From assembly GCA_946886425.1 (NCBI GenBank), contig CAMPIP010000173.1:1-5149 (forward strand): a stretch of DNA of 5,149 nt, in the 5' to 3' direction. Below, one piece after another: positions 1,368-4,179 of the stretch (positions are counted from its first letter, which is position 1; each line of letters begins with the position of its first letter). The position numbers and the translations under genes were made by a program. Below the pieces are notes generated by a model. That model made no database searches. It was not told the origin of the DNA and saw nothing but the letters and a program-made list of their open reading frames with translations. This DNA is from an uncultured Actinomycetes bacterium (GTDB lineage: Bacteria; Actinomycetota; Thermoleophilia; Solirubrobacterales; 70-9).

Positions 1368-1682
1368 ATGCATGCCGTGAGAGAAAAGTGGACGGACGAG
1401 CGGCTGGACGACCTGAACGAGCGCGTCAATCAGGGATTCGCCCGGGTCGATAGCGACATTCGCGAGCTGCGGAGCGAAATGAATTCTCGCTTCGACGCGA
1501 TGGAGACCCGCATGGACGCGAAGTTCGACAAGGTCGACGCGCGGTTCGAGAAGATCGACGCGCGGTTCGAGAAGATCGACGCCCGGTTCGACGCTCTCAG
1601 CAAGCTGCTGCTCCGCGCCGCCGGCGGGGCCATCGCGGTGCTTGTCACGACCGGCGTGGCGCTGGTCGCAACGCAGCTCTGA
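1368..1682 (+). CDS. Tail-anchored coiled-coil protein with heptad repeats
   Basis: This 104-residue protein has a charged N-terminus (about 1-50; WTDERLDDLNERV), a long coiled coil running to about residue 77, and one hydrophobic helix at about 84-103 ending in VATQL. The coil contains near-identical seven-residue units AKFDKVD, ARFEKID, ARFEKID and ARFDALS, with Phe and Ile/Val at spacing suited to heptad core positions. Ile/Val-Asp alternates with Phe-Glu/Asp throughout, and similar proteins (DSDIRELRSEMNSRFDAM) are common in high-GC actinobacteria as I recall. It is probably an oligomeric, membrane-anchored coil with the bulk in the cytoplasm. The function is unknown. The ATG has no ribosome site and may be used leaderlessly. 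The last 38 bases overlap the convergent gene on the minus strand. Confidence 0.85.
   Translation: MHAVREKWTDERLDDLNERVNQGFARVDSDIRELRSEMNSRFDAMETRMDAKFDKVDARFEKIDARFEKIDARFDALSKLLLRAAGGAIAVLVTTGVALVATQL
1518..1592 (+). repeat. 21-bp tandem repeat encoding coiled-coil heptads
   Basis: Two exact 21-bp units lie side by side at 1539-1559 and 1560-1580. A diverged unit precedes them at 1518-1538, and a 12-base partial unit with one or two changes follows at 1581-1592. Each unit encodes exactly one heptad (ARFEKID), so gain or loss of a copy lengthens or shortens the coil by one heptad without breaking frame or phase. Confidence 0.9.
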
Positions 1683-2442
1683 GCTGCTCGCGGCGACCCA
1701 CCTCGAGGACGGCCAGTACCAGTGCTACGGGGACCGTGGCCGGCAGCTGGTCGAGGGTGAAGAAGAGAAAGTCGAAGGAGACGCAGAAGACGGCGGTGAG
1801 GCCGGCGGCGGTCAGCTGCAGCCGTCGGTCAGCCGCGATCAGCGCGCCGAGGGTGGCGGCAACGAAGAGGTCGCCGAAGCCCATTACCGCCGAGCCGAAG
1901 GCGGCGAGCTGCAAGCGCGGCAGGTCGGCCAATGGCGACGCGGCGTTGAGGATCGCGTTGGGACCCTGCAGGAGGTTGGCGCCGACCAGCCAGGCATCGA
2001 TCGCCGCCATCGCGTAGATCCCCCATTTCAGCCACTGGCCGGGGACGAGGCCGGCCAGCGCCCAACCCAGCGAGACGCAGGCGAGCGCCGAGAGCGTCAG
2101 GGCCGCCGCCTCGCCGGATAGCGCGCCCTGGGCGGCCCAGGCGAGCGCGAACAGCGGCGGGACCAGCAGCGCCAGTACCGGCCGGGATCCCCGCACGATC
2201 GCGGCCAGGGCCAGCGCCGCCAGCGGCGGTACCCCGATCAGGGCGACGTAGGTGAGGACCCGGGCGCTGGCCGAGTCCAGGGCGATGGCGCTGACGACGA
2301 TGACGATCGAGAGCGGCGGCAGCAGCGCCCACCAGCGGGTCCGCACCACCGGCGGCAGTCGCAGCCCGGCCGCCCGTGGTGCCGCGACCAGCGCCGCCTG
2401 CACGAGGCTGAGAGCGCCGATCGAGAGCCAGAATGGCAGCAC
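1645..2442 (-). CDS. Nine-helix membrane protein, putative presenilin/SPP-like GxGD intramembrane aspartyl protease
   Basis: This 265-residue protein is almost entirely hydrophobic. By eye there are nine helices, at about 4-20, 38-55, 62-82, 88-104, 112-132, 137-158, 176-204, 208-226 and 233-247. Presenilin and signal peptide peptidase also have nine helices, with one catalytic Asp in helix 6, GxGD in helix 7 and a PAL-type motif in helix 9. Here Asp149 (AIDAW) lies in helix 6, GFGD (188-191) opens the conserved stretch of helix 7, and LPATVPVAL (233-241) sits at helix 9. The two Asp are 42 residues apart, close to the spacing in signal peptide peptidases. The YD motif is ID here and PAL is PVAL, so the match is diverged. 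The start is GTG (complement of 2440-2442), three bases after the ctaA stop and in the same frame, with no clear ribosome site, suggesting coupled translation. The C-terminal tail is basic. It could instead be a non-catalytic membrane protein; the gene is certain, the protease call is inference. Confidence 0.8.
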   Translation of the reverse strand: MLPFWLSIGALSLVQAALVAAPRAAGLRLPPVVRTRWWALLPPLSIVIVVSAIALDSASARVLTYVALIGVPPLAALALAAIVRGSRPVLALLVPPLFALAWAAQGALSGEAAALTLSALACVSLGWALAGLVPGQWLKWGIYAMAAIDAWLVGANLLQGPNAILNAASPLADLPRLQLAAFGSAVMGFGDLFVAATLGALIAADRRLQLTAAGLTAVFCVSFDFLFFTLDQLPATVPVALVLAVLEVGRREQLRAALRPAPRRS

Positions 2443-2445
2443 GCC

Positions 2446-3429
2446 TCAGGTGGCGCCGGCGGCGGCCCGGGCGGCGCCGCGCTCGTCCCCTCGCTCGGCC
2501 GGGGCGCTGGCTTCGCCGCGCGGCTCGAGGCGGCCAGCCGCGGCGACCGTCCATAGCATCGCCAGCCAGTTGCCGGTCGCCACGGCGATGTGGACCCAGA
2601 CGATCCCGGCGGGAAGCTCCAGGAGCCACTGCACGCCCCCGATCGCCCCCTGAAGGGCAAGGAGACCCAGAACGACGGTGAGGGGCTTGAGAGCCCTCCT
2701 GTCGCCTCCAGGGCGCCGCAGGAGGAACCAGACGCCGATCGCGGCGAATCCGTAGATGGCGGCGATGGCGGCGTGGCGTTGGACGACCCATTCGAGGGTT
2801 TCGGCGCCGTAGAACTCGAAGCGGTGGACGAGCTCTCCGTCGTGGTCCCCGGCGTGGGGCCCGGAGGCGGTGGCGATCGTGCCGGCGAGGATCGTCAGCT
2901 GGCCGAACGGGATCAGCGTCCGCACCGCCCAGACCCCGAGCCGGTCGCCGGAGCGGCGGCGCTCCCAGGGCTCGTAGCGGGCGCACCAAGCGAGCGCGAA
3001 GGACGCGTCCAGCAGGATCATCGAGAGGATGAAGTGGGACATCACCAGGCCGGGGGCGAGGTGGAACTTCACGACAAGTGCCCCGAGGATCGCCTGCCCG
3101 AGGACACCGAGGGGGAGCAGCGCCCCGAACAGGGCGAGGTGCCAGCGGTAGGGCCGGCGGAAGAAGGCGAGCACCGAGGCGGCGATCACCGCGAACCCGA
3201 CGAACCCGGTGATCAGCCGGTTGCCGTACTCGATCACCGCGTGCATTTCCAGCGGCGGCGTCGTGCCGCCGTAGCATTTCGGCCAGTCCGGGCAGCCCAG
3301 CCCGGAGCCGGTCAGCCGCACCGCGGCGCCGGTGAGGACGATCATGGCGAGGGCGGCGAGGGCCACCGCCGTGACCTGGGCGTAGCGCTTGGGGGAGATC
3401 TCGAAGCGGTCTCGGAGTCGTTCCCGCAT
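2446..3429 (-). CDS. ctaA: Heme A synthase (COX15/CtaA family)
   Basis: This 327-residue enzyme oxidises the C8 methyl of heme O to a formyl group, making heme A for aa3-type oxidase in the cytoplasmic membrane. Eight helices are visible, at about 18-40, 65-90, 97-120, 128-150, 166-188, 215-238, 247-268 and 275-298, in two four-helix halves as in the family. Hallmarks are GAAVRLTGSGLGCPDWPKC with the loop cysteines Cys46 and Cys52, IEYGNRL (Glu67) in helix 2, MSHF (His132), QRHA (His219) and WVHI (His280). The heme-ligand His expected after the helix 2 Glu is Asn70 here, a form I recall from actinobacterial enzymes. The C-terminus (about 300-327) is Ala/Glu-rich low complexity. The ATG at the complement of 3427-3429 lacks a strong ribosome site. 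The gene lies 39 bases after the cytochrome c gene, probably in one operon. Confidence 0.95.
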   Translation of the reverse strand: MRERLRDRFEISPKRYAQVTAVALAALAMIVLTGAAVRLTGSGLGCPDWPKCYGGTTPPLEMHAVIEYGNRLITGFVGFAVIAASVLAFFRRPYRWHLALFGALLPLGVLGQAILGALVVKFHLAPGLVMSHFILSMILLDASFALAWCARYEPWERRRSGDRLGVWAVRTLIPFGQLTILAGTIATASGPHAGDHDGELVHRFEFYGAETLEWVVQRHAAIAAIYGFAAIGVWFLLRRPGGDRRALKPLTVVLGLLALQGAIGGVQWLLELPAGIVWVHIAVATGNWLAMLWTVAAAGRLEPRGEASAPAERGDERGAARAAAGAT

Positions 3430-3468: not shown

Positions 3469-4179
3469 TCAGCCTTTGTTGTCGGACCCGCCGGCTTTGC
3501 TGCCGCCCGGGGTGTTTTCGACGAGGAATTCGACCAGCTGATCGAGTTCTTCCGCCGAGAGGATTTCCTCGAAGTTCGGCGGCATCACGCCGGGCGCGAA
3601 GCCGGGGGCGATGACCTTGTCGGGATCGACGATGTCCTCGTGGACTTTCGCGTCGCTCTGGCCCTGCAGCACTTCGTCGAGGTTCGGGCCGGCGACGCCG
3701 CCCGAACTGGCGGCGGCGAAGGTGTGGCAGCCGCCGCAGCCGTTGTTGGCGAAGACCTGGGCCCCGGGGCCACCCGGCACCTTCGGCGGTGCCGCGCCGG
3801 GCACGCCAGCGTATTTGCCGACGTAGGCGGCGACGTCGTCGAGGTCCTGGCCGGTGACGAGATCGGCCGGCATCGAGACGGCGGGGTTGTCGGTGCTCGG
3901 ACGGGGCAGCTCGACCTGGGCCTTGACGACCCCTTCGATCGTGTCGCTGTCGTTGCCGATTTCGCGGGCGGCGGCGAAGGCGTCGTCGAGGTCGGGGCCG
4001 ATTTGGGCGGTGGTCCCGGCCTGCGCCATCGCGTGGCAGGTGCCGCACTTCTGGACGAACAGCATGCGGCCCCGCTCGGTGTCCTGCGTCGCCGTGCCAC
4101 AGCCGCTGGCGGCCACGACGACGATCGCCAGGGCGGCGAGCGCGAGCAGGGGTCGGAAGATTTGCGAGCGGGTAGACAT
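3469..4179 (-). CDS. Diheme c-type cytochrome lipoprotein
   Basis: This 236-residue protein starts with a basic N-terminus and a hydrophobic helix ending in VAASGC, a lipobox-like signal with Cys27 as probable lipid-modified residue. It should therefore be anchored on the outer face of the membrane. Two cytochrome c domains follow. The first has CGTCH (Cys45, Cys48, His49) and a probable Met ligand at Met103 (SMPADL). The second, after a Pro/Gly-rich linker (124-140), has CGGCH (148-152) and Met199 (GVMPPNF). Both domains end with the usual helix signatures (LDDVAAYV, LDQLVEFL). The Gly/Ser/Lys tail is low complexity. It probably carries electrons to the cytochrome c oxidase, since ctaA follows in the same direction. 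The exact partner is inference. The ATG has no clear ribosome site, but the signal sequence fits this start. Confidence 0.92.
   Translation of the reverse strand: MSTRSQIFRPLLALAALAIVVVAASGCGTATQDTERGRMLFVQKCGTCHAMAQAGTTAQIGPDLDDAFAAAREIGNDSDTIEGVVKAQVELPRPSTDNPAVSMPADLVTGQDLDDVAAYVGKYAGVPGAAPPKVPGGPGAQVFANNGCGGCHTFAAASSGGVAGPNLDEVLQGQSDAKVHEDIVDPDKVIAPGFAPGVMPPNFEEILSAEELDQLVEFLVENTPGGSKAGGSDNKG

Follow-up and report, generated by a model that had tools for sequence, protein, structure and literature searches.

A compact candidate membrane protease with a predicted presenilin/signal peptide peptidase fold, encoded next to heme A synthase in an uncultured actinobacterium

A nine-helix membrane protein and its predicted fold

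The window, by which we mean the whole 5,149-nucleotide stretch of DNA that was analysed (contig CAMPIP010000173.1, from an uncultured member of the Solirubrobacterales), harbors a gene for a 265-residue membrane protein that is a candidate intramembrane protease with the fold of presenilin and signal peptide peptidase (SPP). The gene lies at 1645..2442, where an earlier reading of the same DNA (the original prediction) had placed it without naming a strand, and runs on the minus strand from a GTG start at 2442 to a stop at 1645. Of the 7995 candidates scored in a protein search, 3995 were homologues at E<=1e-3, so that 1645-2442 is a genuine gene and belongs to a large family. The four best matches share 92, 86, 80 and 77% identity with the 265-residue protein, and among the matches listed (the 120 best of the 3995) the homologues are named only 'hypothetical protein'. 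The large family carries no name because the profile libraries miss it, the protein itself having no Pfam or NCBIfam match at E<=1.

The AlphaFold2 model of the protein, with a predicted local distance difference test score of 93.8, contains nine long helices (residues 4-20, 36-55, 58-82, 88-103, 108-132, 135-154, 189-201, 206-226 and 236-258), together with a short helix (159-167) and a beta-hairpin (strands 179-182 and 185-188). Helix 6 (1981..2040, minus strand, as are all of the following features), which is also found in a fragment model, carries Asp149 (codon 1996..1998), the first of two proposed catalytic aspartates. Helix 7 (1840..1878) begins at a GFGD motif (residues 188-191; 1870..1881), whose Asp191 is the second. 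The hairpin (residues 179-188; 1879..1908) was assigned by DSSP on the AlphaFold2 model, was found again in the fragment model and stands directly before helix 7. Finally, helix 9 (1669..1737) starts around a PAL-like PATVP (residues 234-238; 1729..1743) and is followed by a C-terminal tail that the loop charge count shows to be basic. The model thus agrees with the original prediction of nine helices, with Asp149 in helix 6, GFGD at the start of helix 7 and LPATVPVAL (233-241) at the start of helix 9.

In a structure comparison, places 1-17 of the best 50 fold matches are taken by presenilin, SPP and archaeal PSH chains. The match covers all nine helices in order, so that the predicted model has the nine-helix presenilin fold of MEROPS A22, and the differing helix order that the original prediction had held up as a counterexample did not arise. 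By structural register, Asp149 falls on residue 257 of presenilin-1 (PS1), if helix 6 is aligned with no gap. So far as can be predicted, the 265-residue protein shares the fold of presenilin and SPP and would share their mode of action.

The aspartate pair and the relation to known GxGD proteases

Conservation was followed in an alignment of 248 rows, made up of the query, the 120 best of the 3995 matches, 58 matches from a second search, whose profile was drawn from the most divergent members, and 69 loci; these are the best-listed matches and fetched loci and not a census, and a few proteins are included twice. The second half of the 248th row (P0299) appears to be out of frame, so that counts for the two aspartates use 247 rows. 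Both Asp149 and Asp191 are identical in 247/247 of the rows that align there, and the loss of either, which the original prediction had named as a refutation, occurs in none of them. Over the 248 rows only Asp149, Pro175, Asp191 and Gly199 are fully invariant, which makes the aspartate pair the sole invariant acids, and Asp224 and Asp231 vary among homologues. A separate alignment of 76 rows, with pairwise identity down to 22%, leaves seven of the 265 positions invariant (P72, D149, P175, D191, G199, P234 and T236). The GxGD motif is present in 241 of 247 rows, as GFGD (138), GYGD (84) or GWGD (19), and PAT is kept in 238/248 rows and Pro234 in 245/248. A motif-based scan of genome contigs yielded 63 loci, in all of which residue 149 is Asp; since the search patterns contained MGFGD or PATVP, the counts for Asp191 and PAT in these loci are biased, but that for Asp149 is not. 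When the composition of this one protein was shuffled 200,000 times, the combination of an Asp in transmembrane helix 6 (TM6), GxGD in TM7 and PA in TM9 was recovered 56 times, for a pattern that was chosen post hoc.

The remaining six rows, which keep both aspartates but lack one GxGD glycine or both, read DYPD (2), DYGD (2), GYAD (1) and GWLD (1). These relatives (L063:7774-8574, P0294, L098, L099, L058 and L091) may be either altered enzymes or inactive paralogues, and the five that are present in a tree of the family (P0294 is not included) are spread over more than one branch. Such changes, together with the loss of the Tyr of the YD motif and of the Leu of PAL described below, would suit a protein that has the presenilin/SPP fold and the aspartate pair and yet is no protease, its acids binding a cation or proton in a transport, channel or chaperone role. 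We consider a pseudo-protease of this kind improbable, as the pair are the only invariant acids over the 248 rows, Asp149 maps on PS1 Asp257, and both GxGD glycines and Pro234 persist in nearly all rows. On the strength of its model and this conservation, the 265-residue protein is probably a minimal aspartyl protease of bacteria that has the presenilin/SPP fold and cuts within the membrane.

Several observations weigh against a place for the protein in A22. The family profiles PF01080, PF04258 and PF06550 gave no match for any of 44 members (44/44), and alignment of profiles by hhalign with PSH reached only 2.1-4.8%, which is not significant. The profile search against presenilin, SPP and their archaeal homologues that was proposed as a check was therefore negative, which leaves the predicted fold as the basis for relating the family to A22. 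The YD motif has no Tyr at position 148 in any of 247 rows, the residue there being one of I, V, A, S, L, T and G. Where TM9 begins, PAL is replaced by PAT, with its Leu missing, and Pro234 does not fall squarely on the PAL proline in either comparison: by structure Pro234 lies about three residues off PALP, and in the hhalign alignment, which is not significant, it is Pro238 and not Pro234 that stands opposite the first Pro of the LPPL of PSH (LPPLN at the PAL site in PDB 4hyc). The same non-significant alignment does pair the GxGD of the family with the GMGD of PSH. Of the presenilin motifs, the TM6 Asp and GxGD are present and the Tyr of YD is wanting, while PAT stands at the start of TM9 as a PAL-like segment. 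On account of the failed profile test, the absent Tyr and the PAT of uncertain register, the family is kept out of A22 proper; what stands of the proposal of a compact presenilin/SPP-like protease is the fold, the register of Asp149 and the invariance of both aspartates.

The GxGD motif is shared with the type IV prepilin peptidases (A24, PF01478), aspartyl membrane proteases that are found in the same order (in 55 of 61 genomes tested), and hhalign to A24 proteins of this order, at 6.5-6.9%, is slightly above that to PSH, with the GxGD motifs aligned. It is nevertheless highly improbable that the family is A24-like instead of presenilin-like. PF01478 does not match the 265-residue protein at E<=1, nor is it among the families matched by the 44 members. 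The hhalign alignment, again not significant, brings only GxGD together, the first Asp of A24 being unaligned with D149, which is paired with no A24 aspartate. No A24 chain occurs among the best 50 fold matches, and 17 of 18 family-positive genomes, among the 61, have a separate A24 gene.

Set beside the known presenilin/SPP groups, the family differs from each in its own way. SPP and the SPP-like proteins such as SPPL2a (A22B) have a sequence profile that the family does not match, and the family is bacterial, has short loops, and carries [IVA]D in most rows for YD and PAT for PAL. Compared with presenilin-1, the catalytic subunit of gamma-secretase (A22A), its predicted topology is opposite and its TM6-TM7 connection is short, with no long loop. 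To archaeal PSH (MCMJR1, PF06550) its profile similarity is not significant; PF06550 itself was found in 0/296 Actinomycetota genomes and in 2/14 controls, both of them archaea (Haloferax volcanii and Methanosarcina acetivorans).

Genomic neighbourhood and distribution

The gene is preceded on the minus strand by ctaA, for heme A synthase (2446..3429; PF02628, E 3.3e-25), the stop of which lies 3 nt before the GTG, and ctaA is itself preceded by a cytochrome c-type gene with two CxxCH motifs (3469..4179; PF00034, E 4.3e-19, in two stretches). From this position the original prediction had raised the possibility that the protein processes or removes a membrane protein of respiration, or a signal peptide from oxidase or cytochrome maturation. 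The order of cytochrome c gene, ctaA and family gene recurs in 11 of the 63 loci, with ctaA immediately upstream of the family gene and on its strand, some other contigs being too short to tell. In a tree of 70 proteins, however, the ctaA-linked members fall in one clade (L010, which is ctaA-linked but was left out of the tree label, falls within it as well), whereas 22 members linked to phosphoenolpyruvate carboxykinase (PEPCK) are placed in another, and genes of Nramp, MgtE or RmuC type lie nearby in further lineages, one representative of each having been identified. The aspartate pair is equally invariant in ctaA-linked and other lineages. The adjacency is thus the arrangement of one lineage and no clue to a family-wide substrate. 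Its confinement to one clade makes a dedicated oxidase or cytochrome role unlikely for the family, and a dedicated factor of heme A or cytochrome oxidase assembly is an explanation to which we give very little credence.

A few other open reading frames accompany the family. At 21 loci, mostly PEPCK-linked, a member of the cluster of a 187-residue protein (L036:3862-4425), which has no Pfam match at E<=0.001, lies near the family gene. In the window, a plus-strand frame at 1368-1682, convergent with the 265-residue gene and overlapping its 3' end by 38 nt, would encode 104 residues that show heptad-like repeats (ARFEKID) and, at the C-terminal end, a hydrophobic helix; its Pfam and NCBIfam matches are all below the curated cut-offs, and frames resembling it occur at the equivalent place in several ctaA-linked relatives. 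Also on the plus strand, at 1127-1309 and after COX3, is a frame for a 60-residue hydrophobic protein that has no Pfam or NCBIfam match over cut-off and 47-70% identity to proteins at the equivalent place in relatives, and which is perhaps a small oxidase subunit.

The 63 loci are titled Solirubrobacterales, Thermoleophilia or other actinobacterial groups, with the exception of L044, whose assembly is titled 'Chlamydiae bacterium' and is probably mislabelled or mixed, as its protein groups among Solirubrobacterales in the tree. By profile search the family was found in 59/151 genomes of the order of Conexibacter arvalis, in 14/149 of the class and in 4/296 of the phylum, each count including the centre genome, and since such searches score the candidates of a genome only in part and many assemblies are drafts, absences are soft. 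Some genomes contain a second, diverged copy.

Orientation, proposed activity and significance

The orientation of the protein in the membrane can be predicted from the charges of its loops. Per protein, loops 1-2, 3-4, 5-6 and 7-8 hold 8.6 Lys and Arg residues (11.4 with the C-terminal tail), against 2.8 in the N-terminal end and loops 2-3, 4-5, 6-7 and 8-9, and the bias points one way in 44/44 members. By the positive-inside rule, this places the N-terminus outside and the C-terminus inside. The main sources of charge are loops 1-2 (4.2), 7-8 (2.0) and 3-4 (1.7). Two loops run counter to this topology: loop 5-6, at 0.70, does not exceed its neighbours on the opposite side in basic residues, and is itself exceeded by loop 6-7, which has 1.16 over its 42 residues. 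According to PMC7768045, type II proteins are cut by SPP and its SPPL relatives, which have the N-terminus outside, and type I proteins by presenilins, which have it inside. The charge-based prediction for the family is the N-out/C-in topology of the SPP branch, and an SPP-like orientation of the active site is likely as read from the sequence.

The mechanism that we propose would proceed as follows. The nine helices would bury Asp149, in helix 6, and Asp191, in the GxGD of helix 7, and a water molecule would be activated by the pair. An unwound substrate would be held in beta-strand form by the PATVP turn at helix 9 together with the hairpin that precedes helix 7, and the substrate bond would be cut inside the bilayer. 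That the candidate protease is catalytic in this way seems probable from the model. As the N-out/C-in topology gives the orientation of SPP, the substrates expected would be segments with a cytoplasmic N-terminus, such as small membrane proteins and the signal peptides that signal peptidase leaves behind. Remnant signal peptides, which are N-in/C-out, would be a natural candidate substrate, and their clearance as the main job of the family is a suggestion that we make tentatively.

Bacterial SppA (S49) is an unrelated peptidase with a job like that proposed here, the removal of signal peptides. It was found in 9/151 genomes of the order, compared with 11/14 control genomes, and this rarity leaves room for another signal peptide peptidase. 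There is no complementarity between the two, as genomes without SppA show no enrichment of the family (SppA in 4/59 family-positive and 5/92 family-negative genomes, p 0.74). The only genomes with SppA among these 59 are G036, G042, G073 and G079, whose family members (L092, L093, L094 and L095) have an insert between helices 5 and 6 and keep both aspartates.

Relatives of presenilin and SPP are described from eukaryotes and archaea (PMC9282858, PMC2947513, PMC4343526), and a literature search, with most subscription papers outside it, found no bacterial presenilin/SPP-fold family. It is conceivable, although we would not put it more strongly, that the family is an unrecognised bacterial branch of the presenilin/SPP-fold proteases, acting as an SPP-oriented signal peptide peptidase in the Solirubrobacterales, where SppA is rarely found. 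If so, the presenilin/SPP fold extends beyond archaea and eukaryotes, and the bacterial family would widen the question of where this fold arose. With 265 residues, short loops, a predicted presenilin fold and the aspartate dyad, it would serve as a minimal model for the enzyme that produces the amyloid of Alzheimer disease, and for bacteria where SppA is not found it would supply a candidate for the clearance of signal peptides that can be put to the test.
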